Program-made: the position numbers and the translations under genes
Notes under the pieces: model-generated
Database searches by the model: none
Seen by the model: the letters and a program-made list of their open reading frames with translations, nothing else
Told to the model about the DNA's origin: nothing
In this document: positions 2,186 through 31,764 of the stretch, one piece after another
Numbering within the stretch: the first letter of the stretch is position 1
How the letters are laid out: the number at the start of each line of letters is the position of its first letter
Assembly (NCBI RefSeq): GCF_000003605.2
Contig: NW_003146288.1
Location: 152,993-185,566, forward strand
From: Saccoglossus kowalevskii
Lineage: Eukaryota; Hemichordata; Enteropneusta; Harrimaniidae
DNA length: 32,574 bases
Direction: 5' to 3'

Positions 2186-2482
2186 GTTTTATCACAATAT
2201 CATCAATACAAAATGGCATTTAAAGTGGATAGTCCCAACGTGAGTTACACTGAAAATTTTATCATCAGTGACTACAAGTATGAAACAACCGAAATACTCC
2301 AGGACAATGGTACCATGAGAGCTGTACCAGTCTCGACTCAGTTCAAGTTTCGTACTGAGTGCAAGAAACCCAGAGTTGGCTGCATGTTGGTAGGATGGGG
2401 CGGCAATAATGGCACAACTGTTACAGCAGCCGTCATTGCCAATAAACTCGGTCTGTCATGGGAAACCAAAACTGGCATGAAG
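2186..2482 (+). CDS. ISYNA1: ISYNA1 exon with start codon (coding part 2213-2482)
   Basis: The first coding exon holds residues 1-90, ending in phase 0 at an AAG followed by the donor GTAGG at 2483. A 27-base 5' UTR piece (2186-2212) follows a good acceptor: a pyrimidine/TTA stretch ending in TATAG at 2181-2185. That acceptor implies at least one upstream non-coding exon. The exon carries the Rossmann-fold GWGGNNG motif. Confidence 0.92.
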
Positions 2483-5400: not shown

Positions 5401-8400
5401 CAAACCTTCTAACTTCCATCAAGGAAGGTGAATCGGAAGTTTCACCATCAACTGTATTTGCTGTTGCTAGTATCCTGGAAGGATGTGCATACATTAATGG
5501 ATCACCACAGAATACACTGGTTCCTGGCGTCATTGAACTGGCTGCCAAGCACAAAGTATTCATTGGTGGGGATGATTTCAAGTCTGGCCAGACAAAAATC
5601 AAGTCAGTCTTGGTTGATTTTCTTGTCAGTGCCGGTATCAAGGTAAGATGACTGATCCATGTCCTCATGTCGCTGTTGTACTATTTCACTGCTACCGTAA
5701 TACCCCTATGCGCTATTAAATACCCCCTATGTTACTGTAAAACTGCTAATACCCCCTATGCTAATGTTACACTGCTAGACAAATATATAACCGACAGGGG
5801 GGGGGGGGGTACAAGTTTTAATATCTTCTAAAACTCACTTCCGTCGCTAAAGTTTAAGCTTAATTCAGTACATTTTGGTAGCAAAAAAAAAAACCCAATG
5901 TAAAAAACACAAAAGCCTAATGAAACTTGGTCATTCAGTAAATAAATAAATAATTAAATAAATTATGTTTTTAATTTTTAAAATGATCACTTTCTATTTT
6001 TCATGCCACCTTGTGTTTATGGACTGGTGATGATAACTGACTTAATTTGGCTTGTGTTCTTCATCATTTAAATCTGCATTGAGTCAATTTTGAAAGATAG
6101 ATGATAAGGCCAAATAAATGAAATGAATGAAAAACACACACATCCAATACTTTATTAAATATATTAAATATATAGAAATTAAATATAAACTTATATAGAG
6201 TTCATGTTTTTAAAGATGTTTAAATAATTTTGTTTGATATTTTGTCTTGGTTTGAACTGAAGTTGTTCTGGTGACAAACTTAACAGCATTTTTTGATGAA
6301 ATAATGAAAAACGCAAATATGAATGCATCTCTGATTTACCAGTTTACTCAAAGTATGCATTCATCAGCGTTGTCATCATAGCATTAAACAAATACTGTTT
6401 TGTTTACTACCAAAATATTTGTAACATATTGTTTTAACCAATATACATTTTGAAACAAAATCATCAAAGAATACACAAATTTATCTACCCCAGTATATTA
6501 ATGTAAAATACTTTATTTTTGCTTGGAATATATTTTGGCTATTTTCGCTGAAGGGATGATTCAGTAAAAATAAAATCCGACAAATACACTTTTTTTTCTA
6601 TATTTTACATTCAACTTGTCAAAAATCAGTGAAAATAAATTCCATACAAAACACCCAAAATGTCTTTTCAGCGAAAATTTATTCCAGCTAAAATAAATTA
6701 TTTTTCAATACCTCTTTAAAAAGGTAAAGATTGAATAAAAGGAAAACTGGATCTGTCTTTTCCATGACAATTTAACCTTACAAAATGGCTGAAGCAGTCT
6801 ACTCTCATTGCTGTAAATTCACCCTTACCTTGCCCTCCCTGGTCTTACTGGTTGTCCAAATGTATAATTAGAATAAGCTGGCATATATCTGCTTCATTTT
6901 CATGGCTTTAGAAAACCGCACCATAATTCCGTGATGCATGTTAAACTATGGATAGAATATTTCTAGTTTACATGATTAATGATTTGATAATATATTCAGA
7001 ATCTTATTCAAAAAGCAAAATGATATTTGTTTGAACTGTAAGGTCGCTTACTATGCACCGATATCATTTAGTGCTTCTCAGACATTTATCCAGTGTAGAT
7101 CCGAGTTGGTGTCAAAATATGCAAATTTTATGCATGATATATTGATAATACAATACGCAGCATGGTCTCATGTTTATAGCACTCTTGTTGAATGTTGCAG
7201 ATGTAGTGAACCCACTTTCACGGTGGAAGAAGAATCAAAACAGCTGGCATCCAGTGTTCACTGAAACAATCCTATGTGTTCGTTCATATATGCATGTTGT
7301 GAATTTCTATGCTTTGTTTTTATGCATGATTAATGTTAATTGAAAATTTGTATATTCACCGCATTAATGCATACATTTCCTTCTTCGGGACCTTTCCAAT
7401 TCTCATCTTCCTCGGGACCTTTCCAATTCTCATCTTCCTCGGGACCTTTCCAATTCTCATCTGTACACATACCTCTGTTATGGTATGGTATGTTTTTCTG
7501 TTCCTGACAAATTGTGCTAATTAATTAACCCTGTAAATGCCAAAGTCAATCTTTTGAACCTGCATTCACAAAATAATTTTTTTTTTTTCTACTACTTTTC
7601 AACAATTTTGATGAATATCTAAAGATAATTGGAAATTACTGTAAATTAATTTTCAATGCTAGGAATTTTTATGATTTGATTTTATGGTATTCATGAAAAC
7701 AAAATTTTGCGAAAGTCGTCAACACTTACTCATACAAAATTTCACGATTTTCACTGACGCAAAATTCGCTAAATTGTGAATCATATAAACAAAAATGACG
7801 AATTTGACTATTGGGCAGACCAACATGTAGAAACTGAGACGTTACAAAGCTTAATAGATAATTTCTTTGGTGACTGAAAGATATCAAAGGAGTCACCTGT
7901 GGTAATTATAGTGCATGTTGCGTCCAGGTCAATACTTGTACTCGTGATTTCAATTAGAAGAGCGCATTGGATTGTGGGAAAATCAATGTTTATTTTAGAC
8001 AAATGTTATAAATGCAAATGCACGGCAACCACCGCTCTTTAAATTCGATTTACAATAAATTTGATCCAAAATTAATAAACATGCTTTAAAAAAATAGTTT
8101 CAAAATACTGTGTCCAATATTTCGACGGGAACATTTTTAGCTTTCATGCGTAAAAGTTTTTGATATTAGAAATTTGTTTTCCCAAATTATTTTGCATGTT
8201 TGTTTCAGCTGCAAGGTGGAATTTTTTTTTATTAGAAGGGTAATAATTATTACAATGAGATTGTATGCCCCCTTTACATTGAACATCCCCACCCTCCATT
8301 ACTGGCCACTAACAGTCTGCTTCTTTTGCTTCTGTAAAAGTCCTTTCTTTCAGTGACCTGAGCGTTCATGTGCTACAGAAGTTGCACAACAATTTGATTA

Positions 8401-11217
8401 GCATAAGGTGTCTGTATATATTGTACTCTCTGTGCCATGGATTTAATGGCACCATTGAGGTAAAAAAAGACAACTGATTTACTTTCTCTTTTTCTCTTTT
8501 GTAAAAAATAATGAAACAAAACATATTTATTATAGGCCATAAAAATTGTCTTTTTTTTTTGAGTGAGTAGACTGTTTTTGAGTGACAGCTAGTCAAATAT
8601 CTGAGATTTGATGATGTTTTAGTATCTGCCAGACAAAAACCGGCTACTCACTTCATTGAAAGCTGAGTTTGATGCCTATAATGAAGTCATAGAACGATTT
8701 TTTTTGTGTGAATCTTGTACATATATGATGCGTGATTTCAGTTTTCCAGTTTTTCTCAATTCATTAGAGCATGAACATTTTACTATGGTGTTGCCACACA
8801 GTATAGGCTATTGGTATTTTAATTGTTGCACCAATGTTAGTTAAATTAGATACAATTTTCAACTAATAAGCCGCATATACAGTACATTGTAATTTTCCTG
8901 CAGCAAAAATAAGATACTTTTAAAAACACTAAACATTAAATATAGTTTTCAAAAGAGTTTAAGATATTTGGTTTTGTCATTATATTGACAAAATATCCAG
9001 CATTTTTATTATCTTCAAGTAAATACACCTGTAGCTAGAGCTACTTTTGTAAATGAAGCCCCCATGTGCATTGTGATATTCCCATGATGCATCTCACCTC
9101 AGTCAAGGCATTTGCTCCATGCTTAGAAAGATGATACGTACATCACAGCGTAAAATTTTATCATCAATCACAACTGGAAGTTAGGCACATATTAGGAAAA
9201 TGGAAGTATCAGCTAGGCTGTATGAAATTTCAATTATTCCCTCAATTATATTTACTCATTTATATTACAGTGTTGACGTACTTACTGTTTAAGGCTTTAA
9301 AATTTATGCATTGTTTTAAAATAAATTCCATTCCTTTCCCTCAATTAGTATATTGAATCTTTACGGTAATTATGTATTAAAAAATATATTTTAAACTGTT
9401 ATCTGTTCTAAAGAGACCAATACCCATAAATGAAAAAATTAAAGAGCCAAAATTACACTAAATGCAAAATTGAGAAATATAACTCAGTTATACTTTAAAC
9501 ATTAAATCGGTTTTACTAATTACTTGAAGAGATTGGACCATTACCTAGTCATAATTACTGATGTAGTGTTGCTCTATAAAATAAGATAAATTGCAGTATC
9601 CAGATTTCTAAATTATTGAACCCAAGCAACAGCTGTTGCTAAGGTAGAATGGCTTTATTTTAGCACAGAAGCTGTCAGAAGGTAAAATTTCTGTTTTCAG
9701 GAAAAATTGTACTTCAGTGTTGCTATGGTTTCACTACACATCAGTGTTGCTATGGTTTCATGTACAGATCCATGATTTAAGCAAACGGATCCTGAATGTA
9801 ACTAAAATACTATATTCGAATCTTGAAATTAAATTATTTCAACAAATATTAATTTCTAACATTTTTTTTTAATCTTTTTGAATCACAGCCAGTTTCCATC
9901 GTCAGTTACAATCACCTTGGCAACAACGATGGCAAGAATTTGTCGGCACCCCAACAATTCCGTTCGAAGGAGATCTCCAAGAGCAACGTAGTTGATGATA
10001 TGGTCCAGTCTAATTCTATCTTGTATGAGGAAAATGAGAAACCAGATCACTGCGTCGTCATTAAATACGTACCATTCGTTGGTGACAGTAAGCGTGCTAT
10101 GGACGAATATACCTCAGAGATTATGATGGGCGGCCACAATACCATCGTGATGCACAATACGTGCGAGGATTCGCTTCTTGCTAGTCCAATCATATTAGAC
10201 TTGGTTATCCTCTGCGAGATGTGCCAGAGAATCAATTTCAAGACAGGTATATTATTATTTTTCAGTAAATTGTGCTTTCAATACATGTACATTAACATTG
10301 ACTTTCAACTGTTTTTGAACTGAAAAGTATCCATATGAATTCAAAGCCGGAATATAGTCCATTATACAATTCAGTTACTATCGGCCCAGATGATGGGGCA
10401 TTTCCCAATTTGATAAATTCAATGTAGGTACCAGCTTCAATTTTTTTTTTAATGTAATTTTCATTGTTATTTATTGTCTATTTATGTTTTCGTTTTGGTT
10501 TTATTTGCAGCAAGTAAAACAAACAAAAAATAGTTATGAATAAACAAAAATAACAATAAAATAAATAAATAAAAAATAAAAAAATTTGAGCCTATATGTA
10601 CATCAGATTTTAATCAGATTGGGCCATAGCCCAAAATATCCAGTTTAGTGAAAAATTACAATGTATGAGAATGGCTTATGATTACCAAAAACTGCATTTT
10701 ATTTACTGGTACATTGTACAAATTTATTATATTTATAGATGGTATTGCTGATTTTAAACCACTTTATTTTCCGGGATAAATGTTCTCGAATGGTGTAAAC
10801 AATAGTTTTGTTTTGTAATGAAATTAAAGGATGAAGGAGTAGTTGAATAAATTCTGTTTTTGTGACCGTTGTTGTCGTTGTTAACGTCTCTTATTTCACC
10901 CTTTGGTTACAGCTAACAGTGATGACTGGGAAACTTTCCACCCAGTGTTGTCCATCCTCAGCTACCTCTGTAAAGCCCCGCTTGTTCCCTCGGGTACACC
11001 AGTGGTCAATGCACTCTTCAAACAACGTGCCTGTTTGGAAAACATCTTCCGAGCCTGCATCGGACTACCGCCAATCAACCACATGACTCTGGAACACAAA
11101 GTCAGCACACCACTGCCAAAGATCGCTGAAACTAAAAAGGTTGAGATCACCGAAAAGACTAAACCGGTTATTTTCAAGACGATGAAGCAGGCTTCAGCTG
11201 TGCCATGTGAAGAATAA
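2213..11217 (+). CDS. ISYNA1: Inositol-3-phosphate synthase (MIPS), complete five-exon coding region
   Basis: The enzyme converts D-glucose 6-phosphate to 1D-myo-inositol 3-phosphate with bound NAD+, the committed step of de novo inositol synthesis, in the cytosol. Coding exons are 2213-2482, 3462-3842, 5331-5642, 9889-10246 and 10913-11217; introns are GT..AG and the phases join without a stop to give 541 residues, close to the usual animal length of about 550. Visible family motifs: the dinucleotide-binding GWGGNNG at residues 61-67, LWTANTERF near 221-229, [11 protein letters not shown] near 273-283, [11 protein letters not shown] near 296-306, [10 protein letters not shown] near 326-335 and SKSNVVDDM near 351-359. 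The start ATG has A at -3 and G at +4, and the protein aligns from its first residues with animal homologues known to me. No frameshift or missing motif was seen. It runs convergently towards the SPRY/TIR gene; no functional link is evident. Confidence 0.97.
2541..2897. mobile_element. MITE-like element with 13-bp terminal inverted repeats, ISYNA1 intron 1
   Basis: AGGCCAGACTTTT at 2541-2553 is exactly inverted at 2885-2897. The 357-bp interior has no convincing coding sequence. No clear target-site duplication was identified, so the superfamily is unknown. Confidence 0.55.
3462..3842 (+). CDS. ISYNA1: ISYNA1 coding exon 2
   Basis: This exon has 127 codons, phase 0 at both ends. The acceptor TTCCTTAG ends at 3461 and the donor GTGAGT starts at 3843. 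It encodes residues 91-217, beginning [10 protein letters not shown] and including FDGWDISSL and [12 protein letters not shown], all conserved in animal MIPS. Confidence 0.95.
4134..5282. mobile_element. Hairpin plus 157-bp tandem-repeat element (Helentron/pearl-like), ISYNA1 intron 2
   Basis: The left end is a hairpin, AGCTCCGCT (4134-4142) against AGCGGAGCT (4156-4164), followed by a CGT/CGTC-rich simple repeat. About seven copies of a roughly 157-bp unit follow; each contains the phrases CTTCTTGTTAAAAA, GCTTTGATATTA and TGATGATATCTTC. The far end is a single AGCGGAGCT at 5274-5282. Read on the - strand, it ends in a hairpin followed by a run of A. This plan matches non-autonomous Helentron (HINE) or bivalve pearl elements; the family assignment is inference. 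It ends 48 bp before exon 3. Confidence 0.6.
4230..5225. repeat. Tandem array, about 157-bp period
   Basis: The phrase CTTCTTGTTAAAAA (or a close variant) recurs near 4230, 4388, 4545, 4701, 4858 and 5017, with a shortened copy near 5170. Adjacent copies differ by a few scattered substitutions and small indels, so the array is not recent. Confidence 0.85.
5331..5642 (+). CDS. ISYNA1: ISYNA1 coding exon 3
   Basis: This exon has 104 codons, phase 0 at both ends. The acceptor CCCTGCAG ends at 5330 and the donor GTAAGA starts at 5643. It encodes residues 218-321 with [20 protein letters not shown] and the Lys-rich [15 protein letters not shown] stretch that forms part of the MIPS active site. 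A transposon-like element ends only 48 bases before this exon. Confidence 0.95.
6500..6710. mobile_element. TGTAAAATA-type palindromic MITE, degraded copy 1
   Basis: It has the same sequence order as the reverse complement of the copy at 26265-26474, including GCTTGGAAT, TTTCGCTGAAGG, the ACATTCAACTTGTCAAAAAT core and TTCCAGCTAAAATAAATTA. The terminal TACTGTAAAAT is decayed at both ends here. Confidence 0.7.
7386..7466. repeat. Three tandem copies of a 27-bp unit
   Basis: CGGGACCTTTCCAATTCTCA recurs at 7386, 7413 and 7440, so the spacing is exactly 27 bp. It lies inside ISYNA1 intron 3 and is not part of the protein. Confidence 0.85.
9889..10246 (+). CDS. ISYNA1: ISYNA1 coding exon 4
   Basis: This exon encodes residues 322-440 plus the first base of codon 441. 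The acceptor AATCACAG ends at 9888 and the donor GTATAT starts at 10247. It contains [23 protein letters not shown] and [10 protein letters not shown], the most conserved C-terminal MIPS blocks. Confidence 0.95.
10247..10912 (+). other. ISYNA1 intron 4
   Basis: A 666-bp AT-rich intron with an AAATAAATAAAT-type stretch near 10556-10583. Nothing else was recognised. Confidence 0.8.
10913..11217 (+). CDS. ISYNA1: ISYNA1 last exon with stop codon
   Basis: The acceptor TTGGTTACAG ends at 10912. The leading CT completes the split Ala codon from exon 4, and the frame runs to TAA at 11215-11217. It encodes residues 441-541, including [29 protein letters not shown] and the Lys-rich, poorly conserved tail typical of animal MIPS. 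Confidence 0.95.
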
Positions 11218-14858: not shown

Positions 14859-15765
14859 CTACGTCTTAGTACACTCTAGTTTTACACAAACCAGGCAGAA
14901 ACTCAAGTACTCTCGAAGTTTTGCAACAAATGCCGACTTGCATCGACGGTCAGTGATGGAGGATACGTCGACATCAAAGTGCTTGCAAATGAACATTAAT
15001 GTTACTATGCCAATCTCATACAGGCCTCCCCTCTTTGCCAAGTCACAAAGGTTGAATGTATCGTACAAGACATGGTGACATAGTTCGACGTTTGTGATGA
15101 TTTTCTCTTGTATGCGACTGTTGGAGGATTTGATTACAGTAGGGGCATGTTGCTCCTCCTCCTCCTCCTCCTCAGAGTCTTCTGAAACTTTACGGCGTTT
15201 AGCTGCCAGTCGGGAGAAATAGCTAGAGACTTGCTGGCCATTCAAAAAGTCCTGCACCTGGAATAGCCGTTGGCCTTGTGCATCACGCGCATGCCTCATC
15301 TCTTTGGACACAGTAATGGGGTCTGACTTTCGTCCAGTAGCTTGTCCAAGCCAAAACCGCTTATCAAGGTCCTTTTTTGCTTGTGGCTAAACCAGACAGC
15401 CATCTTCGGACTGCGCAGTGCCCATCCTTGCTGTGGGAAAGGTGTTGTTCTATTTACTTCTACTTCTAAGGATGGCTCTACATGTGGCACTTCTGACAAA
15501 CTCTGTGCAAGCTTTTCTGCGTACTTCAACTTTGTCTTGTCCAGCAAAGTCTCTCTTTCAAGGCGACGTTTGTGCTTTCCAACAGCTACATGAGCCTCCA
15601 GACCTTTGCATGTTTGATAAATCTTGACGCAGCTCTCTTCTGGACAAGGGAAAAGGCTACCCCTGGCTGGGTTGCACAGTCTCATGACTTGCCGCATCTT
15701 CATCGGAATCTGATTTCTTGTTGAGCTTGCACCTTAATTCATCTGCCTGGACCTGATGGGTCGAA
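14859..15765 (-). pseudogene. Frameshifted C2H2 zinc-finger / GWAL-type protein, probable pseudogene
   Basis: On the - strand, a fragment reading LRCKLNKKSDSDEDA runs into a stop near 15660. The next frame (15703-15296) has a C2H2-like finger, C-x4-C at FPCPEESC and H-x5-H ending at VGKH, then GWALRSPK. It stops, and the third frame (about 15315-14859) continues with MRHARDAQGQRLF, QQVSSYFSRLAAK, an acidic Glu run and a C-terminal region. From memory, a family of invertebrate proteins of unknown function, often in repeats, has a finger followed by GWAL and SFFSRLAAK motifs in this order; I cannot verify a match here. Two frameshifts (near 15660 and 15315) indicate a dead copy. A - strand AATAAA lies at 14642-14637. 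It sits within an insert in a transposon-like element, which suggests captured or nested mobile DNA. Confidence 0.55.
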
Positions 15766-20750: not shown

Positions 20751-20756
20751 TTTATT
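20751..20756 (-). terminator. Candidate polyadenylation signal of the SPRY/TIR gene
   Basis: TTTATT on the + strand is AATAAA on the - strand, 87 bases beyond the stop codon. It gives a plausible short 3' UTR. Confidence 0.45.
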
Positions 20757-20842: not shown

Positions 20843-21007
20843 TCAAAGAATTGTACATGCTTTAGAATTTCTTTGTACATTAGCCTGTTTTCTTGTTGGC
20901 GATGAATCATCCATGTTGCCAAAACCCTGAGCCTTCCTTTTATCTGCATCAGCAATTGCTTTTTTCAAAGCATTGGGGTCAGTCTTCTCATTACGACGAC
21001 TTGCATT
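20843..21007 (-). CDS. SPRY/TIR gene, last exon with basic tail and CaaX box
   Basis: The acceptor is TAAATTTAG, in phase 0, and the stop TGA is at 20845-20843. The 54-residue tail is rich in Lys, Arg and Ser (NASRRNEKTDPNALKKAIAD, SPTRKQANVQRNSKACTIL). Cys-Thr-Ile-Leu at the extreme C terminus is a CaaX box; Leu in the last position favours geranylgeranyltransferase I. The upstream basic residues would help membrane binding. Confidence 0.85.
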   Translation of the reverse strand, partial: NASRRNEKTDPNALKKAIADADKRKAQGFGNMDDSSPTRKQANVQRNSKACTIL

Positions 21008-24000
21008 CTAAATTTAGAAAAAAAAATAAAAAACCATGATTTGGGAGATTACACTCTGAACTAGTATGAGATAGTCATCATTTGAGATTTATTTATTTAT
21101 CATTAATTTGATTGAAATATTTAGTATGATCAACAATTGATGGGTCCTTTTTTTTTTTTTACAAAATTTTGCCTGTCTTTCAATTTGTGTAACCAGGATC
21201 TGAGAATCTAGTATCTTTACACTGCCCTCATGTTAGTAACAATAGAGGCACATGTTAACCAACAAATTCTGTTTTGATATGTACAACAAACTCACAAAAG
21301 TGACATGGCAAAAAAAATCAGAAATGAAATGTACTGATCCATTTCTGCCAACGTATCAACAAGTCATTTACGTAATTAAATGCATGCACTACTAATAGAG
21401 CAAATACTGTATGTGTGGGCATTTTCCCTGATTACTTTGAAATAGATCAAATGCACAACCTGAGAAAATGAATTATTGGATCTTGAATTGGAAAACCTGA
21501 CTAACCTGTGCATCGGTGTAGAGTAATCTCGCTCCTTCTCCCTCACTGACATGAAACTCCACTGCATTGTAACCTTTACCCTTGACATCAACAAGATGCT
21601 TTTCAAGTTGTTCAATCCCCCACGTAAAATCCGAATACATTTCTGACGAAATAAAATCAAATTAAATTGGAAACAATGATCATCCAAAAAAAGTAAAACT
21701 TATCAAAGTCGGTATTCCCATCCAACAAAGTATTTGAACCGTTGAAAACCGCTTCACATCTTTTATGTACCGAGTATTAAATGGTTAAGTACTCCAAAAA
21801 ATACAAAGCATAATACATACCGATTCGATACATTGTCAGATACTGCAGCGTATCTTGAATATTTCCAGCAGGCGGCCATTCCGTCTTCTCCATCACGGCT
21901 AGTAGTATCGGCTTATTATACTTCTTGGCTAACTTTAATTCAATCGGTGCATGCTTACTGTTGCAGTATTGTGGAGTGATACACATCACGATCACCTGAC
22001 ATGTCTTGATACGTGGTTCCATGTCTAACTCAATGCTACCCTTTGCCACGCGTGCCTGGGGCAGCAACATAGAGTTAAAGCCATAGGAATCCAACCTGTG
22101 ATGTAACAGACAATATTTAAAATTTTAAATATTACATAGTTGGTAATGTTTTTTTTTTATATAACTTATAACTTAATGCAAGTATCATAATATTGTTAAT
22201 GAACTAAAATTAATGTATTTGTATGTACCCAGCCTTGACATAAGTGGCTTCATTCCACCGTTCGGCATCACAGGTAATATACACTTTCAGCTTATTGAGG
22301 TGACTTGGAGGTCTTTCTACAGGCGATGCCGGCCTCGCAAGTCGGCTTTCATCGGTTTCTTTATCTGCAAACAAAACACAGCATTGAAGAATTATAATTA
22401 AACTTAATGAAATAGTTTCTCTGCATAAATTTTATATCAAATGTCACGTTTACATTGATGATTTCAAGATAATAAGATTTGAGCGATATGCAAAGTTTTG
22501 AAGACAATCCAGCAATGTGGTCTGGCTCAGATACACTAGTATGTCAACTCCATATTTTCGCCATTACCAGTAACCAAATTTTTATTGTATGCTGGATCAT
22601 TATAATACCTCTTAATTCGACAAAAGACACATCACTGTCTATTACGCGAGCATACGAGCAGCTAATATATTTTGCCCTTAACTGTGATACAGTAAACATA
22701 TTAATTATTAGCTGGTTTTTAATTTTGCTATTTTCGCTAAATTATATCCACATGAACATGTAAAATAAGAATAGAACTCATTGTTTCCCTGCCAAGATTG
22801 TGCACCTAAAAATCAGTGAATTCGCATGAATCATTAAAATAGTAAAATTAAAATGATTTTACAGTATATGTATTCGTTGAGTAACATTTCACCTGCTTTA
22901 TGATACTCAGTATTACCAGTATTATTAGACTACAATATTACTCCACACCCACCGTGATAACAAATAACGTCAACAAAGTAAACCAATGATAAATAAGACA
23001 ATAAATTGTATCTACACTCTCTTGACATTGGGCAGCGTGAAATGAATAAAACCAAATATGACAACAACAAAAAAAGACTTCTGATTTCTGTATATACTTA
23101 CGCAAGGCCTTCACAAGTACTTTGTGTTGTTTGATCTTTTCAAATGCTTTCTCATTCCAAGCGTCTTTTTCAGGTAATGAAGGTGCTTTGAAATTTGTGT
23201 TAATTTCAAGTTCATCTCCTGCAATAATAAAGTATATAATACCTCCTGTAAGCAGCTTCAATTTTACAAGACAAATTTTCATGATTTGGTGAGATTTGTG
23301 GAATTTGTAGCATTGCAACATTTCACTGGGAGGTCATTCATTAAAACTGCATAATTTTTCCTGAAATATTATCCCCAAGAATCATTAAATCCGGAAATGG
23401 GACAAATGACAAACTTGGGTGGTTGAAGTGACTTACCATAAACTTGGGTGGTTAGAGTGACTCACCGTAAACTTGTGTGGTTAAAGTTGGATACAGTCCA
23501 CCATGTGGTTGTTCTACAATTTCATGGAACACAACGGAACCATTGACGGTAAAATATACAGTGACGAACTGTTGTACTCTTTCATCTGTCTGTTCAGGAT
23601 CAGGATATACAATGCCACAACCAATAGTGTCATTGGTGAAGCCGGCTGGTATGTCCAGGTGGTCTACAAGAAAAAACAGCCAATCAGGATTAAACAATGC
23701 CACAACCAATAGTGTCATTGGTGAGGCCAGCTGGTATGTCCAGGTGGTCTACAAGAAAAATAGCCAATCAAGATTAAACAATGCCACAGCTGGTATGTCC
23801 AGGTGGCCTGCAAGAAAAACAGCCAATCAGGATTAAACAATGCCACAACCAATATTGTCATTGGTGCGGCCAGCTGGTATGTCCAGGTGGTCTACAAGAC
23901 AAACAGCCAATCAGGATTAAACAATGCCACAACCAATATTGTCATTGGTGCGGCCAGCTGGTATGTCCAGGTGGTCTACAAGAAAAACAGCCAATCAGGA

Positions 24001-27000
24001 TTTAACAATGCCACAACCAAGAGTGTCATTGGTGAGATCAGCTGGTATGTCCAGGTGGTCAACAAGAAAAATAGCCAATCAGGATTAAACAATGTCACAA
24101 TAAGTGTTGCCACTGGATGAACCAGCTGGTATGTCCAGGTGGTTCTATCAGAATAACAGCCAATGAAGGTGAAACAGATACTACAACAACTGCTAACCAA
24201 TTAGAATAAACACATTTCTAAATTCAAAGAAAAGTAATTATTTCTGCAGAATCAGCATTGTTATTTTCAGAACAGTATTTCATATGATGTCCCAAAACCC
24301 ATGCACAAAACCAAGTACACTCCATTTCATATTCGCATGATTGTTTTGTTGTGGGAATTTTTAAATTATTTATCAAACTTTCACTCCAGAAGACCCTCAG
24401 CTACACTGAAATTCAAAGAGGATGTTTTTATTGGTTATATAAGGAGTTTGGGTAACATTCATCATCTGAGTCTTAGCGAGTCTCTTTCAATTATTGGTAT
24501 ATATGGGTGGCATTGTATCCGCTAAGACATTGTGATTGGTCAAGTTGTTTTCAATAAATAATTTATAAATATTTTATCAGAAAAACATTCACGCCTTTAT
24601 GAAACTGGGTGTAACAATGATAAATGCATTTACTACTTTCAATATACTTGTATCTTTCAATACTTACTGACTGAAGGTATTCTGGATCGACTTTTCATTA
24701 TGATATCATTTCTATGCGTAAAGAAACTAACGTCCAAATAGTTGGAGTTTGTTCTCGGTACATGGGAGTGATTTGATATCCCTATGGTAGGACCCTTCTT
24801 CTTTGACCTTCGGGATAATATCTTGACCGAAAAAAAGCTGCATTCTGAAAAAAAGAGGAAGGTTTATTTGCAAGATATCTGCGCCAGGTTTGAAGCACCT
24901 TTCTTGGTAAACATTCACGGCTTTGTAAGCCTTCCACACACCTATATGCAAAGTTATGACAAGTGTTACTCCAAACCAAGTGACAATTTGTGTGACTTAA
25001 GACTCACAATTTTTAATCACTAATTGATGATTCTCCATTTTGCATGTTAGTTTGTGTTTACTTACCTCTACTCAATGGATGTGGTGCACTAATCATTTGG
25101 GGTTCACTTTTCCTCGATTTATTCTTCAGTTTGAATTTTTGCAATCCTTGAACACTAACCTCGGCACTTTTCATCCAGTCATTCAAATCTTTCTACAAAC
25201 AAGAAATATCATTGTTTTTGTGACAAGTTGGTTAAACACATGATGAAAGTATAATCTCAAAATTGTCATTAATTTTATCGTTAAAAAGTCATGAAAAAGA
25301 CAATCGTCATAAAACAGACATTTTAACTACACAATTTGAATGCATACATGTTTGAACATGGTGACATTATAAATGTTTTTCTATTTATTTTTCCTCAATT
25401 CCATACAATTTTTTAACAATGACCAGGTGACGATATCAACCAAAACCTCCTAAGTTATTTCCCTTGCACTCTAAAAATAGAAACTTCTGATACATGTGAT
25501 ATGAACAGTTTATCTGTCAGATTCAAATTACAGACATATAGATAGAGGCTCTGGATTCTTTTATTATACAGGCATCAGTGTACATCGCCTCTAACTAAAT
25601 ACGTACAAAACTGCTTTCAAGTCTTGTACAATCAACAGCCAATCAGAACTCATGTTACATGCAGACACTATTAAAGAGACATACTAATTGGACATATTGG
25701 TTGTGCAGACTGAACACAATTGTTGTTCAGATGTGAGATGTTGTATGCTGGCAGCCACATTTGTCGGGGCGAGATGCAAATCATAGGTGTGTTTGTTGAT
25801 TAAGTTTGAATTGTCTAGTTAGACTTCAAAATGTTTTCTATAATTAATATTCAATTCGCTGTATTATTTCTGTTCAGCAATAGCTTTGATGTTTAGTTTA
25901 GATTATTCGTATTCCTATTATATCATACATTGTATTTGACCTATGACGTTATTACCGCGATCAGTGATTGGTTTAAAACCGATCTATCACAACTTGAGTT
26001 TTGTGTCATGTGACTCTTGAGGTCCTCGTGCCATTGTTATCGTTTATTATTTTTACGTTTGTTGTTGTTTCAAGCCGTTGTTGATGTTTCCTTTTCAAAG
26101 TTCAATAAATGTCAATCCTGACATGAGACTTTCCGACTTCGTGAATTGTTCCGACCTATAGAGTACAGTGGCTATACTTCGAGCCAAATCACAGCCACCA
26201 CATTTTAAAAAATCAGATTTTAATCCGGATAAACAGAAATGAGTCAATCCATCATCCCTTGTAGTACTGTAAAATAATTTATTTTAGCTGGAATTAATTT
26301 TCGCTGAAAAGAGTTTTTGCGTGTTTATGGAATTTATTTTCACTGATTTTTGACAAGTTGAATGTAAAATTTAGAAAAAAAAGGTATATTCGTTGTATTT
26401 TATTTTCACTGAATCATTCCTTCAGCGAAAATATCGAAAATTAATTCCAAGCAAAAATAAAGTATTTTACAGTATATTAATCCTTTGTGTGCCTAGGACT
26501 AATTTTAGCACCTTTCACAAAATAAAGCCCACATAATTTTTTGGCATATTCATAAAACCTGTAGCCAATAAATAAATGTCTGCCTGGTAAAACATTAACA
26601 AAGAATTTAAAGAGAAATACACTGTACATATAAATAGACAAAATTTTGCACAAAAATTTTGGCGGGAAAACTGATGGTGTTCAAAAGGTTATATATACAA
26701 TGTAACAACCTCATAGCCTGAAAGGTTGGCATCATGAACCCAAGTACAGAAACACAAAAACCAATGCCGCCATGTTGGACTTGGTCTTCAGCAGAAGCAA
26801 CATAACTACAGTTAGTTGTAGCCCTTCAAACATGACAGATATTTTTGTCTAGGCAGTCTTAAATAAAATATAGTCACATAAACACAACTCCTGAATCCCA
26901 TACAAGTGTCCATTAAAGTACATAAACAACAGCCGTGAACCCCTTTTTGTGACTTTATTCATGTGTTGTATTTATATATTTATGCACAGGTTTTTACTCT

Positions 27001-30000
27001 TCAAAATTAAACAGTCGTTTGCATTCACATACCGGTATATTTTTCCCGATTTATTCAGAAATGTTGTTAGTTGGTATCCTACAGACTGTGATAGCTACAC
27101 TATTGTGCATCAAACTCAGTACTTGGGATGATTTTTGGATTTACAGCAGACTTGGAATGTATCAGGAAATGGTATGATGACAAACAAATATTCAAGTCTC
27201 AGGTCATCGACTGAACATAAATGCATCAAAAAAATTCAACTTTTGTTTACAAAGTTAAAATAAAAACACAATTTCTATGCCAAAAAATTTAAAATGCACA
27301 CATTGACTTTCAAAAGAAAATTGATCTTACACATTTTTTTTTTATTCAGGGCCTAATAAACTGAAAGAAGTTATTTTGAATACAGACAAACAGACAACAT
27401 GAAAGCTCAGTTCATGCCTTCTATCACACAAGGCACCATGAATACAGCGATATATAATCATACCTGATTAAAGATAGGCTTTGGCTGAGTTATTTTGTGG
27501 GGCCAATCAGGCCGGACAACACTTGGCATGTTCTTAAAACCAATGGATGCCAATAAATCATATTTTCTGTTGTTCATGACTTGTGCCCTTCCCATCAGTT
27601 GGCCATTCTTTGTAAATGATACAATGTAGACTTCACCAGAATAATCAAGAATGCATCCTACTATGTCTCCTACAAGACGAAGAAAAAAAAAAACTTCATT
27701 TATTAGACACTATGAACGAATCTTATCCAAAATGGCTGCCGATTAAGTCTTGTTGACAGCAAGAGAGCCACGTAAATTGTTTTTGCCTGGTAGTGTTTTA
27801 TTTTCTATCACCATTATGACCACTGTCCTGATGTTACATAGATCAGCAGAATAAAGAATGTGATGACAATGAAAAAATGAAACATTATTTGGGAGGCACA
27901 AACATGTAGTGTTGCTCTCTCACTCTCAATAAGATCTCAGATAGCAATTGCAAATTGAAAATGAGCACCATATTTTCTTTTAATATTAGAAGTGCATCTG
28001 TAATCAGAGCATGCAACAAACGAAATTTATATAAATTCTACACAGGATCATTAAAATACAAATTGATCATAAATACATCTGTCATTTCATGAGTGCATAT
28101 GCTATGAAATAAATAAACGTAGTACCTGCATACAAAAAATGTGAGGTGACAATCTTCTGAACACCGAAAGCTGTGATGTCATAACCTTAAATTCTGAACA
28201 CCAAAAGCCGTGAGATGACAACCTTCTGAGCACCAAAAGCTGTGAGATGACAACCTTCTGAACACCAAAAGCCGTGAGGTGACAACCTTCTGAACACCAA
28301 AAGCTGTGAGGTCACAACCTTCTGAACACCAAAAGCCGTGAAGTGACAACCTTCTGAACACCAAAAGCTGTGAGGTCACAACCTTCTGAATACCAAAAGC
28401 TGTGAGGTCACACCCTTTTGAACACCAAAAGCTGTGAGGTCACAACCTTCTGAACACCAAAAGCCGTGAAGTGACAACCTTCTGAACACCAAAAGCTGTG
28501 AGGTCACAACCTTCTGAATACCAAAAGCTGTGAGGTCACACCCTTTTGAACACCAAAAGCTGTGAGGTCACAACCTTCTGAACACCAAAAGCTGTGAGGT
28601 CACAACCTTCTGAACACCAAAAGCTGTGAGGTCACAACCTTCTGGACACCAAAAGCTGTGAGGTCACAACCTTCTAAACACCAAAGTCAACTTTTGTAAC
28701 CTTTCCCAAAATAAACCTGCAGAGATTTATTCCATATTTTTTTCAAAAATTTGTTTGATCAATGGGAAATTACATCCATTTAGTCTAAAATTAAGATGAA
28801 AAGATGATGGTGTTCAATGGTGAAATAGATGATGAATTACAAATGTTACAAAACCACAAACAAGTAAACATATTACACCTGACATAAGTACATGTATATT
28901 CATGCTCAATAAATGTCTCGCGGGTTCTTGTGTGATTTCTGTAGATCTGCATTGCATGTTACCTTAAAATAATAGGTGCAAACCCTTGCATATTATCATC
29001 GCCTTTGTCACAAGAATCCTTGAATAAATTAATGTGTTACCTTTATCATACTCTTCTGATTTAAAGTATGCATTCTTGTGTCTTGAACCTCTGTATACGC
29101 CCCCATGGCAATGATATCCCGCTGTCTCTGTTAGGTATCCTGGTAACGTACCGACAGTTTGTCCTGACCTCGTGATACCAATAGCCAATCCACTGTCATA
29201 CCCTATATGCAACACAACACCAATCAAGTGAAATCAAACATTTATTTATTTTTGATGGTTCATAAAAACTCTTTCACACTTTGAATGCCAACCTTTTGCA
29301 CAAAATTCAAAAATATTGATCAAGACCTACAGGCAATGCTACAGGTATCAGGAATTTTCTTGATTTGAGGTTATTTAGTGAAAGTCCCTGACACTTTGTG
29401 TCGTGAATCCTCAAAACCTTTTCACTGAAAATGTGTCTCACACAAAATAAAATTTTTAATGCAAAATAATTTTGTGATTTTCACTGAAAATGTGTCTTGC
29501 ACAAAATTTAAAGTGATTGACAGGATGTTTATTTGGTTCAAAATTAACAGAAATTATTAAAAAAAAAACATCACAGCATGCCAAATATATGGCATATAGA
29601 TTGTAAATGGTTGAATGTGAAGAAAATACAGAAGTTTTCATAAAATACATGGGTCGGGAAAGATGAAAAAATTAGTAATTTAGTCATAACTATAACATTA
29701 AAACACAGTTCTCACCCATTTCAGTGACAGTGACAGTGAAATATGGTCTCTCCGAAGTCATGGCTTCCATACATTGTATCATTGCAGGTTTTATCAAAGG
29801 TTCACTAGGACTGACTGTACCACTGGCCTGAACTGTACCAACTGATGGTGCAAAACAGTACACACCACTCATTTTACCTTCAATCTCAACATCTTCAAAA
29901 TCATGAGGTTTGGACTGATCTGAAAAAAACAAGCCATGCATGGCACAGTCCCCGTTAGTTATCGAATTTAAGATATATAGTTTTGTTTATAGTAATATAG

Positions 30001-31764
30001 ATGGAATATAACCATGTCAGGAATATGATTATGATGATTTTTTAACATTAAAATGATTGACATTTCTATCTGATCATCAAACAAGTACTTGTCCATATTG
30101 AGAGATATTGCTCTGGAACAGTGTTCAAAATCAGCCATTTTGAGTAAATGAATATATCTATAACATGATGTATAACGAATATATAAAATTTGAATATAAT
30201 CAGTCAAAGCATGTCAGAGATATGGCTCTAGAAGCCCAGCCATTAAAACACAATGGCCGCCAGTCAGCCATTTTGAATTTAATCTGAAAAATAAAATGAT
30301 GTGCATCAGGAACCTGTTATGTCTAATGTATGTACCAAGTTTGAACAAAATCCATCCATAAATGCCAGAAATGCTAGATATTCAATGATTTTTTAGCACA
30401 AAAATGGCCACCATTCGGTCATTTTGAATAGGATCGTCAAACCAATACATCTGTATATCTATGACATGATGTATAATGAATATTAAAATTTGAACATAAT
30501 CAGTCAAAACAAGTCAGAGATATGGATCTAGAAGCCCATTCATAAAAACAAAATGGTCGCCAGACAGCCATTTTGAATCTGATCTGAAAAATAAAATGAT
30601 GTGCATCAGGAACCCGTAATGTCTAATGTATGTACCAAGTTTGTACAAAATCCATCCAGAAATGCCAGAAATGCTTGATATTTGATGATTTTTTTAGCAC
30701 AAAAATGGCCACCATTCAGCCATTTTGAATAGGATCGTCAAACCAATATATCTGTCTATCTATGACATGATGTATACCGGTAATGAATATTTAAAATTTG
30801 AACATAATCAGTGAAAGCAAGTCACGAGAACCACATTCATTAAAACAAAATAGCCGCCAGTCAGCCATTTTGAATCTTATCTGAAAAACAAAATTATTTG
30901 CATCAAGGTCCATAATGTCTATACCAAGTTTGAACAAAATCCATCTGTAAACAGCTAAGAAATGCTTGATTTTGATGATTTTTTAAACACAAAAATGGCC
31001 GCCATTCGGCCATCTTGAATAAGATCGTGAAACAAATTGATGTGCATATGGGTGAAGTTTGATTAAGATTGGTCCAGGCATTTCTAAGATACAGGCATTT
31101 CTAAGATACAGGACCGGACGCACGCACGCACGGACAGAAGCACAGACGCACAGACGCACAAGGGTCAAAACACAAGTCCCCGTTTTCGGACTGCGTCAGC
31201 ACGGGGACTAAAAACATAACATAAGAAAACATCTATTTATGAGCATAAAATGGTAATATTGAAAAAACAAAAACAAAGTAAAAATGAAATATGCCACTGA
31301 GGGTGTATAACATTTTATTTAAACTTGTAGTGTATGCTAAAAACCAAACTCTGAATGCTGAACAGCAAAAGCTGTGAGGTCACAATCATCTTAATACCAA
31401 AAACTGTGAGGTCACAACCTTCTGAACACCAAAAGCTGTGAGGTCACAACCTTCTGAACACCAAAAGCTGTGAGGTCACAATCTTCTGAACATCAAAAGC
31501 GATGAGGTCACAATCTTCTGAACACCAAAAGCAGTGAGGTCACAATCTTCTGAACACCAAAAGCGGTGAGGTCACAATCTTCTGAAAAGGCAAGATTTCA
31601 TTAATTCATAAACTATTTGATTTCTGGATACCATCACTTACCAGGCATGTGGAACTCGGGTAGATCGGTGAATGCACCATCGGACTTAGCAGCCACGTCC
31701 TCTATCCATCCGTTGAAGTCACATGACGGGGCAGCAGCTTGCATATTGACACTCACAATGTCAC
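20843..31764 (-). CDS. SPRY-SPRY-TIR protein with C-terminal CaaX box, 12 exons, 5' partial
   Basis: Twelve exons join with consistent phases and no stop: 31764-31642, 29919-29716, 29202-29041, 27669-27464, 25192-25066, 24844-24668, 23663-23466, 23218-23102, 22364-22229, 22095-21821, 21642-21506, 21007-20843. They encode 674 residues from the first whole codon. SPRY 1 spans about residues 56-215 (YFTVTVTEMGYDSGLAIGI, LPGYLTETAGYHCHGGVY, GDIVGCILDY, VSFTKNGQ). SPRY 2 spans about 275-398 (FFSVKIL, NDTIGCGIVYP, VTVYFTVNG). The TIR domain spans about 463-605 (LKVYITCDAERW, CQVIVMCITPQYC, KPILLAVMEKTEWPPAG). The chain ends in SKACTIL. SPRY domains bind proteins; TIR domains self-associate and some cleave NAD+. 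The terminal CTIL predicts geranylgeranylation and membrane anchoring. An immune or cell-death role is inference; I know no named orthologue. The acceptor before the first exon shows that the 5' end is missing. Confidence 0.85.
21506..21642 (-). CDS. SPRY/TIR gene, exon for the TIR end
   Basis: The acceptor is TTTCGTCAG and the donor is GTTAG, a non-consensus +3; it enters in phase 1 and leaves in phase 0. It encodes EMYSDFTWGIEQLEKHLVDV and a charged segment ending in YTDAQ. The W..GI..L pattern fits the last helix of TIR domains. Confidence 0.85.
21821..22095 (-). CDS. SPRY/TIR gene, exon for the TIR core
   Basis: The acceptor is TCACAG and the donor is GTATG; it enters in phase 2 and leaves in phase 1. 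It encodes GLDSYGFNSMLL, CQVIVMCITPQYCNS, KHAPIELKLAKKYNKPILL and EKTEWPPAGNIQ. The Glu in HAPIEL (about residue 535 of the visible chain) is at the position where enzymatic TIR domains keep their catalytic Glu; this alignment was made by eye. Confidence 0.9.
22229..22364 (-). CDS. SPRY/TIR gene, exon for the start of the TIR domain
   Basis: The acceptor is TTTGTTTGCAG and the donor is GTACAT; it enters in phase 1 and leaves in phase 2. A Pro/Ser/Arg-rich linker precedes LKVYITCDAERWNEATYVKA, the first strand and helix of a TIR domain. Confidence 0.88.
22688..22866. mobile_element. Degraded palindromic MITE, copy 2, SPRY/TIR intron
   Basis: The left end TACAGTAAACATATT with TTATTAGCTGG and TTTTCGCTAAA, and the right end GATTTTACAGTA, correspond to the family at 26265-26474. 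The interior is strongly diverged. Confidence 0.4.
23102..23218 (-). CDS. SPRY/TIR gene, linker exon between SPRY 2 and TIR
   Basis: The acceptor is TTATTGCAG and the donor is GTAAGT; both ends are in phase 1. It encodes GDELEINTNFKAPSLPEKD and AWNEKAFEKIKQHK, probably helical and charged. It resembles the first visible exon (31642-31764). Confidence 0.85.
23411..23497 (-). repeat. 29-bp tandem triplicate covering the donor of exon 23466-23663
   Basis: AAACTTGGGTGGTT-type copies start at 23411, 23440 and 23469 (+ strand). On the - strand each is the exon's 3' end; the two downstream copies are followed or preceded by ACGGTGAGTCACT and ATGGTAAGTCACT. The GTGAGT donor ends the exon at 23466. 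A second donor, GTAAGT, would end it at 23437 but reads through an in-frame TAA. Confidence 0.8.
23466..23663 (-). CDS. SPRY/TIR gene, exon for C-terminal half of SPRY 2
   Basis: The acceptor is TTTTCTTGTAG and the donor is GTGAGT; both ends are in phase 1. It encodes HLDIPAGFTNDTIGCGIVYP, VTVYFTVNGSVVFHE and GGLYPTLTTQVYG, a clear SPRY C-terminal half. Its acceptor with the first part of the exon is repeated upstream in an 84-bp array, and its 3' end with the donor is repeated downstream. Of the acceptors, this copy is the only one whose frame continues past residue 20. Confidence 0.88.
23611..24170 (-). repeat. 84-bp tandem array of splice acceptor plus exon start, about seven copies
   Basis: AATGCCAC recurs at 23611, 23696, 23780, 23839 (short unit), 23923, 24007 and 24091 (as AATGTCAC), with a step of 84-85 bp. 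On the - strand each unit is a pyrimidine tract, CTTGTAG, then the start of exon 23466-23663. AG acceptors would put exon starts at 23748, 23807, 23891, 23975 and 24144; the copy near 24060 has lost its AG. Each upstream unit reaches TAA after about 19 codons in the exon's frame. Confidence 0.9.
24668..24844 (-). CDS. SPRY/TIR gene, exon for N-terminal half of SPRY 2
   Basis: The acceptor is CTTTTTTTCAG and the donor is GTAAGT; both ends are in phase 1. The only frame that joins its neighbours is open: ECSFFSVKILSRRSKKKGPT, IGISNHSHVPRT, DVSFFTHRND. It is a divergent, basic first half of SPRY without the usual LPG...GYH motif, so this domain call rests partly on the next exon. Confidence 0.8.
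25066..25192 (-). CDS. SPRY/TIR gene, inter-SPRY linker exon
   Basis: The acceptor is TTGTTTGTAG and the donor is GTAAGT; it enters in phase 0 and leaves in phase 1. It encodes KDLNDWMKSAEVSVQGLQ followed by a Lys/Arg-rich stretch. The W-containing start resembles the linkers after the other SPRY modules. Confidence 0.85.
25193..26264 (-). other. SPRY/TIR intron, part without recognised genes
   Basis: No exon fits here. A CpG-containing stretch at about 25740-26205 has an AATAAA (26104-26109) and could be a retroelement LTR fragment, but its ends and target duplication are not identifiable. Confidence 0.4.
26265..26474. mobile_element. TACTGTAAAAT palindromic MITE, best copy
   Basis: TACTGTAAAATAATTTATTT at the left is inverted at the right as ATTTTACAGTA. 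The inner arms TTTTCGCTGAAAAG and TTCAGCGAAAAT also pair, and the ends are flanked by TA. It is nearly palindromic over about 50 bp at each end. No coding capacity. TA ends suggest the Tc1/mariner type. Confidence 0.75.
26475..27463 (-). other. SPRY/TIR intron, no gene recognised
   Basis: AT-rich intron sequence without a supported exon, array or element. Confidence 0.5.
27464..27669 (-). CDS. SPRY/TIR gene, exon for C-terminal half of SPRY 1
   Basis: The acceptor is GTCTTGTAG and the donor is GTATG; it enters in phase 1 and leaves in phase 0. It encodes GDIVGCILDYSGE, IVSFTKNGQLMG and ASIGFKNMPSVV, matching the end of SPRY domains (GD.IG, F.KNG, strand with bulky residues). Confidence 0.9.
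27670..28145 (-). other. SPRY/TIR intron, low-information part
   Basis: Nothing is recognised apart from an A-rich tract at about 27680-27692 next to the exon at 27464-27669. Confidence 0.5.
28146..28690. repeat. Minisatellite with a 32-bp unit, about 17 copies
   Basis: The unit AGCTGTGAGGTCACAACC followed by TTCTGAACACCAAA steps by exactly 32 bp (for example 28303, 28335, 28367). Two main variants alternate, GCTGTGAGGTCAC and GCCGTGAAGTGAC. It lies in the intron between exons 29041-29202 and 27464-27669. Confidence 0.95.
28691..29040 (-). other. SPRY/TIR intron, remainder after the minisatellite
   Basis: AT-rich, nothing recognised. Confidence 0.5.
29041..29202 (-). CDS. SPRY/TIR gene, exon for the middle of SPRY 1
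   Basis: The acceptor is GCATATAG and the donor is GTAAC, a weaker +5 position than usual; both ends are in phase 1. It encodes YDSGLAIGITRSG and LPGYLTETAGYHCHGGVYRG, the SPRY core pattern (GLAIG, then LPG..., then GYH..GG.Y.GS). Confidence 0.9.
29203..29715 (-). other. SPRY/TIR intron between the first two SPRY 1 exons
   Basis: Contains a pair of similar segments (TTTTCACTGAAAATGTGTCT at about 29419 and 29473). No exon fits. Confidence 0.5.
29716..29919 (-). CDS. SPRY/TIR gene, exon for N-terminal half of SPRY 1
   Basis: The acceptor is T7CAG and the donor is GTGAG; both ends are in phase 1. It encodes DQSKPHDFEDVEIEG, SGVYCFAPSVG and ends in RPYFTVTVTEMG, the typical first conserved strand of SPRY. 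A transposon-like element begins 28 bases upstream of its 3' splice site, so the branch point lies in or beside that element. Confidence 0.88.
29947..31209. mobile_element. Hairpin plus 300-bp tandem-repeat element (Helentron/pearl-like)
   Basis: The right end is a hairpin, AGTCCCCG (31175-31182) against CGGGGACT (31202-31209), followed by AAAAAC. Just inside are CGCACG/CAGACGCA simple repeats (about 31116-31160). About three and a half units of roughly 300 bp follow, each with AAATGGCCGCCAGTCAGCCA, GATGTGCATCAGGAAC and ATGTATGTACCAAGTTTG phrases. The left end repeats AGTCCCCG at 29947-29954. The plan is identical to that at 4134-5282, in the opposite orientation. Helentron-like assignment is inferred. 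Confidence 0.6.
31345..31595. repeat. Second 32-bp minisatellite array, about seven copies
   Basis: It has the same unit and orientation as the array at 28146-28690 (AGCTGTGAGGTCACAACC then TTCTGAACACCAAA), in a different intron of the same gene. Several copies have the variant CACAATCTTCTGAAC. Confidence 0.9.
31642..31764 (-). CDS. SPRY/TIR gene, first visible exon (linker)
   Basis: The acceptor CTTATCAG lies just above 31764 and the donor GTAAG just below 31642. Two leading bases belong to a codon split with an exon that is not identified. It encodes DIVSVN then MQAAAPSCDFNGWIED and a linker. The Met at 31744-31742 has A at -3, but the frame is open above it. The exon resembles the post-SPRY linker exon at 23102-23218 (same phase, D, N and APS at matching positions). 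It therefore probably follows a further SPRY domain upstream. Confidence 0.75.

Follow-up and report, generated by a model that had tools for sequence, protein, structure and literature searches.

A candidate gene joining two SPRY domains, a TIR domain and a CaaX-like tail in the hemichordate Saccoglossus kowalevskii

Results

The window analysed here is the whole stretch of 32,574 nucleotides from S. kowalevskii, corresponding to C3691:152993-185566 in the 572 Mb genome searched. On its minus strand, the existence of a SPRY-SPRY-TIR gene is confirmed at the level of sequence. The interpretation we favour, with confidence falling just short of even, is that of a single gene of animal type, whose product would be a cytosolic and probably geranylgeranylated adaptor; binding by its SPRY domains would cluster the TIR domain, a domain of a kind known from immunity and cell death, at the membrane. 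The predicted order SPRY-SPRY-TIR-CaaX in one chain, proposed in a preliminary description of this DNA, is borne out by the exon chain, Pfam matches for the first SPRY domain (SPRY1) and for TIR_2, the solved structure 2yyo, a gene finder, shuffle tests and a profile of TIRs from the same genome.

Gene structure

The gene was reconstructed exon by exon between positions 20843 and 31764 of the minus strand. Twelve exons with continuous phase, as previously claimed, could be rebuilt: all 11 introns are of the GT-AG type, and in each of the 12 exons the proposed frame ranks first among the six by codon score, stops penalising the alternative frames. Since the splice sites were picked with the reading frame in view, phase continuity alone is no independent proof. 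The spliced chain has 674 residues when counted from the first acceptor, and 668 from the in-frame ATG at 31742-31744 in exon 1 (31642-31764), which is flanked by a CAG acceptor and a GTAAGT donor. The outer limits had been placed at 20843 and 31764: the exons are recovered within this span, but 31764 corresponds to a splice acceptor and coding begins at 31744. From there the open reading frame proceeds to the stop at 20843, with neither a stop nor a frame break across the 668 codons, and the predicted protein ends in SKACTIL. An AATAAA motif is found 86 nt past the stop (20751-20756, minus strand).

The adjacent gene, for inositol-3-phosphate synthase, supplied the 524 codons on which the codon table was trained. 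Scores are positive in 10 of the 12 exons and negative in exons 3 and 6; for exon 3, the lead of the proposed frame is only 0.1. When the whole protein was searched against the genome, the best 21 candidates being scored exon by exon, all 12 exons were recovered at this locus, as well as the first part of exon 7 in a single array copy.

A blind gene finder, using general metazoan consensus values as splice matrices, was run at different intron costs. At -11 and -13 it returns a single gene from the ATG at 31744 to the stop at 20843, with the SPRY and TIR parts joined: 10 of the 12 exons are correct (exon 1 being counted from the ATG), exon 3 is missed and exon 6 is moved. Inclusion of about 17 kb of upstream sequence brings in no further coding exon and leaves the result unchanged at these two costs. 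At -14, exons 3, 6 and 8 are dropped, with the two parts still joined; at -7 and -9 over-prediction occurs, with 23 and 18 exons, respectively. A 27-exon gene generated by a first gene finder was rejected, because splice sites were overpaid.

The window is intron-rich, with a GC content of 0.29-0.43 per kilobase, and repeats are found within the gene. In intron 6, a tandem array of 84-85 bp units (23599-24164) repeats the acceptor of exon 7 along with the first part of that exon; the TAG acceptor is kept in four of the six ACCACCTGG copies, the real exon start being counted, and exon choice could be variable at this array. The donor of exon 7 occurs twice owing to a 29-bp repeat at 23411-23487: use of the second GTAAGT, 29 nt downstream, would shift the frame. 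One 32-bp minisatellite unit occurs both at 28133-28685, in intron 3, and at 31358-31586, in intron 1. Elsewhere in the window, exons of the inositol-3-phosphate synthase gene (PF07994, PF01658) lie on the plus strand at 2186-11214. Two overlapping frames of 175 and 145 aa, with no Pfam match, are located on the minus strand at 14862-15733, in the GC-richest kilobase; at a guess, they are possibly part of a mobile element. No Rfam match is found in the window at gathering thresholds.

SPRY domains

SPRY1 starts in exon 2 (29716-29919), returned by both the reconstruction and the gene finder, has its core in exon 3 (29041-29202) and ends in exon 4 (27464-27669). Exon 3 is absent from the gene-finder output at costs from -11 to -14 and is crossed by the Pfam and 2yyo alignments; exon 4 is found by reconstruction, Pfam, the search for structural relatives and the gene finder. 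The Pfam family PF00622 is matched over cut-off (E 1.7e-8). Among solved structures, SPRY1 is nearest to SPRYD3 (2yyo, E 3.2e-9), followed by RanBP9 (2.3e-5) and then by RanBP10; no TRIM chain is present among the solved relatives listed. The TRIM and RanBPM families had been named earlier as examples of protein-binding SPRY modules; RanBP9 and RanBP10 are second-best here, and SPRYD3 is closest.

The second SPRY domain (SPRY2) begins in exon 5 (25066-25192), which also encodes a linker and is found by reconstruction, 2yyo match and gene finder. Exon 6 (24668-24844), for which the gene finder chose 24762-24941, contains its N-terminal half, and exon 7 (23466-23663), present also in the gene-finder output, its C-terminal half; the last strand, at the end of the 2yyo alignment, and the linker to the TIR domain are encoded by exon 8 (23102-23218; reconstruction, gene finder). 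No Pfam match is obtained for SPRY2. Its best solved match is 2yyo (SPRYD3), with E 0.0066 over 142 residues, the sole other match being unrelated (0.93). The SPRY2 scores are reached by none of 1000 whole-domain shuffles; if exon 6 alone is shuffled inside the domain, one of 1000 reaches the SPRY profile score, the profile containing the window's own SPRY1. When single exons are compared with SPRYD3, the score of exon 7 is reached by none of 1000 shuffles, that of exon 6 by 110 and that of exon 8 by 222. SPRY2 as a whole scores 85 with SPRYD3 versus 32 with a RanBP9 fragment, which is shorter; the latter score is reached by 70 of 1000 shuffles.

Human SPRYD3 was also compared by halves: SPRY2 scores 85 with the first and 78 with the second, neither value being reached in 1000 shuffles. 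SPRY1, too, matches each half, and the window TIR matches neither. Since SPRY2 matches the two halves alike, a one-to-one order of the SPRY domains with SPRYD3 is not established. SPRYD3 being the best solved match for both domains, the N-terminal two thirds of the predicted protein look like a divergent SPRYD3-type tandem.

SPRYD3-like genes are present in the same genome on contigs C993 and C1001 (in the latter, three tandem copies, C1001:454290-461541, L041-L042). Orthology of the window gene with them is not supported: in the genome-wide search at E 0.01, with the best candidates scored, neither locus is matched by the window protein, and matches on the loci themselves are at chance level. 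Their intron positions, compared by eye, are mostly unlike those of the window gene, and no TIR is found on their contigs among the matches listed. A genome scan for SPRY, which misses intron-split domains, the window's own included, lists 10 matches on nine genome stretches, none of them a close relative of the window SPRYs.

TIR domain

The TIR domain is encoded by exons 9 to 11. Exon 9 (22229-22364) carries a linker and the first strand and helix, exon 10 (21821-22095) the core with the conserved glutamate (SKHAPIEL), and exon 11 (21506-21642) the C-terminal part. The junction between exons 9 and 10 is spanned by the TIR_2 match; exon 10 is marked by Pfam, genome scan, alignment and same-genome profile, and exons 9 and 11 are returned by the gene finder in agreement with the reconstruction. 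TIR_2 (PF13676) is matched with 30.3 bits by the TIR alone (cut-off 28) and with 26.9 bits, below the cut-off, in the full chain; in the genome scan, the window TIR is one of 43 matches, with 30.5 bits. Pfam profiles, suggested earlier as a check on the spliced protein, back it only in part: SPRY1 passes, and TIR_2 passes alone, but SPRY2 has no match and TIR_2 falls short in the full chain.

Among the 21 candidates scored in the genome search, the only matches to the window protein elsewhere are three weak TIR matches (E 2.9e-4 to 0.005), on contigs C3896, C1644 and C4186; no SPRY match is found on these contigs in the scan, which is blind to exon-split SPRYs. By eye, their TIRs share the signature TP-[KRQ]-Y ... 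KPI ... WPP with the window TIR. With a profile built from the TIR of C3896 and both TIRs of C4186, the window protein scores 42.9 bits, versus 6.9 for the highest-scoring of 2000 shuffles; the test is tilted towards these TIRs, which had been selected for lying on contigs that match the window. If the profile is instead built from SARM1 together with six further TIRs from the same genome, the score is 8.9 bits, and with all ten it is 31.8. In pairwise tests on an earlier set of 12 TIRs, the best partner is C3228 (L014, 0 of 500 shuffles), followed by C843 (2 of 500) and SARM1 (6 of 500).

Comparison of SARM1 with the window TIR is weak by BLASTP and phmmer, and the local score is the one reached by 6 of 500 shuffles; the score of a global alignment is reached by 1 of 1000. 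Assignment to the SARM1 type was rejected, because the profile test favoured the other TIRs (8.9 bits with the SARM1-containing profile versus 42.9 with C3896/C4186). The glutamate in SKHAPIEL is aligned with the SARM1 catalytic position, in helix C. Four residues before it, a histidine is found, versus the tryptophan, an aromatic, of SARM1, and Box 1 reads YITC, not FISY. The window protein thus departs from the NAD+ hydrolase pocket at both the aromatic preceding the glutamate and Box 1; the roles of these residues are taken from general knowledge and, in part, from the accessible portion of PMC7075850. At the glutamate position C3896 has an aspartate, while C4186 and C1644 keep the glutamate, with an asparagine four residues before.

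Two other arrangements were observed among TIRs of this genome. C4186 (L058) features a tandem pair of TIRs, and the frame that holds the second of them closes with KSVSCILI-stop. In C3164 (L060, 617-1366) the second half of a TIR is followed by UBX in one frame, an unusual TIR architecture: the first TIR exon scores 30.9 bits, the second 14.1, under the cut-off, and the UBX match spans profile positions 2-41 of 82.

Wider searches produced no relatives: none was found for the TIR in plasmids, phages or IMG/VR, none for the whole protein in GTDB contigs, and NCBIfam gave no match. PADLOC reported only weak ThsB matches (E 0.0038 and 0.035).

C-terminal tail

Exon 12 (20843-21007), returned by reconstruction and gene finder, encodes a tail ending in CTIL-stop, a CaaX-like end. 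Ends of this kind are uncommon in the window: of its 310 open frames of at least 40 residues, 5 close with the loose C-x-a-x pattern and 2 with the strict pattern, the last exon of the gene being included. Like ends are found at C4186, where one open frame contains both the second TIR and the CILI-stop, and, less surely, at C1644, where a frame of 114 residues, lying downstream of the TIR exon and presumed to belong to the same gene, ends in CTVCSIL-stop; as the only CaaX-ended frame among 32 listed, the latter may be due to chance. The TIR exon of C3896 appears to splice onward. A CaaX-like tail is thus probably common to part of this group of TIRs.

A CaaX box with X = L favours geranylgeranylation, and the CTIL tail is a candidate for prenylation. 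The membrane tethering proposed earlier gains some support from the end of the C4186 TIR frame and from that of a likely last exon at C1644.

Alternative explanations

It is improbable, in our judgement, that two neighbouring genes were merged, the first carrying both SPRY domains and stopping past exon 8, the second made up of TIR and CaaX. The intron that separates the SPRY exons from the TIR exons, intron 8, does contain the polyadenylation-like hexamers ATTAAA and AATAAA, and the same genome does have SPRYD3-like genes and, apart from them, TIR frames ending in a CaaX-like box; but the exon 8 donor and the exon 9 acceptor are phase-matched, no methionine is encoded by exon 9, and when the intron between them is forbidden at cost -13 the gene-finder score falls from 55.3 to 35.1 (20 log units), leaving a TIR gene that begins within the TIR domain. 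With the same intron forbidden at cost -11, the score falls from 75.3 to 56.3 and both parts are still joined via another exon, as they are at -7 and -9. We infer one transcript carrying both SPRY and TIR exons. The 668 uninterrupted codons, codon scores above zero in 10 of the 12 exons and the intact splice sites, stop and polyadenylation signal make it very improbable that the TIR, or the entire gene, is a decaying, non-functional copy, as might be suspected from the divergent Box 1, the weakness of SPRY2 and the repeats crowding the introns and the exon 7 borders.

A SARM1-like reading is a more serious contender, although we regard it as rather unlikely: the TIR would be an NAD+ hydrolase triggered by ligand binding to the SPRYs, making the protein a SARM1-like death effector with other regulatory domains. 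The SARM1-aligned glutamate, present in the window, C4186 and C1644, is consistent with it, as are the placement of SARM1 in the same TIR_2 family and the global alignment; the weak local comparison, the low score with the SARM1-containing profile, the changes in Box 1 and at the aromatic, and the aspartate of C3896 argue against it. On balance we lean slightly towards a TIR acting as a scaffold rather than as an enzyme.

Discussion

The favoured reading, a membrane-anchored SPRY-SPRY-TIR adaptor, may be pictured as follows. The tail (CTIL, X = L) would anchor the protein to the membrane, where the two divergent SPRYD3-class SPRYs would bind a partner protein; this binding would cluster the chain on the membrane and lead to TIR assembly, and the assembled C-terminal TIR could then recruit other TIR proteins or consume NAD+. 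Such a SPRY-TIR-CaaX protein would give animal TIR signalling a ligand-binding, membrane-anchored layout.

The preliminary description knew of no named animal protein with this domain order. In agreement with this, no SPRY-TIR protein was found among the open-access papers listed in our searches, nor any relevant report on the combination of SPRYD3 with TIR; the architecture may, however, already be present, unnamed, in public gene models. The accessible part of one comparative-genomics study of eukaryotic SPRY-like domains lists RING, HECT, NACHT and death-fold partners and does not name TIR (PMC8195603); SPRY is not mentioned in the accessible part of PMC6321704. A survey of TIR domains (PMC7075850), as far as available, reports a metazoan group of varied architecture, and SPRY does not occur in its main text. 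The SPRY-SPRY-TIR-CaaX combination may thus be undescribed; no new principle is shown by it.

A link to the ubiquitin system is conceivable. NMNAT2 connects to SARM1. According to the accessible part of PMC12664034, human SPRYD3 binds the ubiquitin ligase MYCBP2 via its SPRY2, and MYCBP2, its reported partner, acts on the axon survival factor NMNAT2. Given the connection from SPRYD3 through MYCBP2 and NMNAT2 to SARM1, a SPRY-TIR fusion is a lead, not proof. A ubiquitin theme is also hinted at by the UBX in the TIR relative C3164. As a conjecture of low probability, the window gene may belong to a membrane-anchored invertebrate TIR lineage, in which geranylgeranyl-tailed TIRs are combined with modules of the ubiquitin system, namely UBX at C3164 and SPRYs of the SPRYD3 type in the window gene, and a ubiquitin ligase or an invader, as ligand of the SPRYs, would set off TIR-driven NAD+ loss at membranes. 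If this were true, the union of these domains in one gene would naturally suggest a shared pathway for SPRYD3-MYCBP2 and NAD-consuming TIRs.

Among known systems, the SPRY part is closest to SPRYD3 (2yyo), best solved match for both domains and, as described in the accessible part of its source, likewise made of two tandem SPRYs; to our knowledge, human SPRYD3 has neither the TIR nor the CaaX of the window gene. RanBP9 and RanBP10, whose SPRY domains are the second-best solved relatives of SPRY1, are also, as far as we know, without a TIR, unlike the window protein. For the TIR part, the likeness within the genome is to C4186, C1644 and C3896, with their shared signature and the CaaX-like end at C4186 and probably at C1644. 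SARM1 has the layout ARM-SAM-TIR, lacking the SPRY domains of the window protein; as to the TIR itself, both are assigned to TIR_2 by Pfam, have their glutamates aligned and feature an EWP motif.
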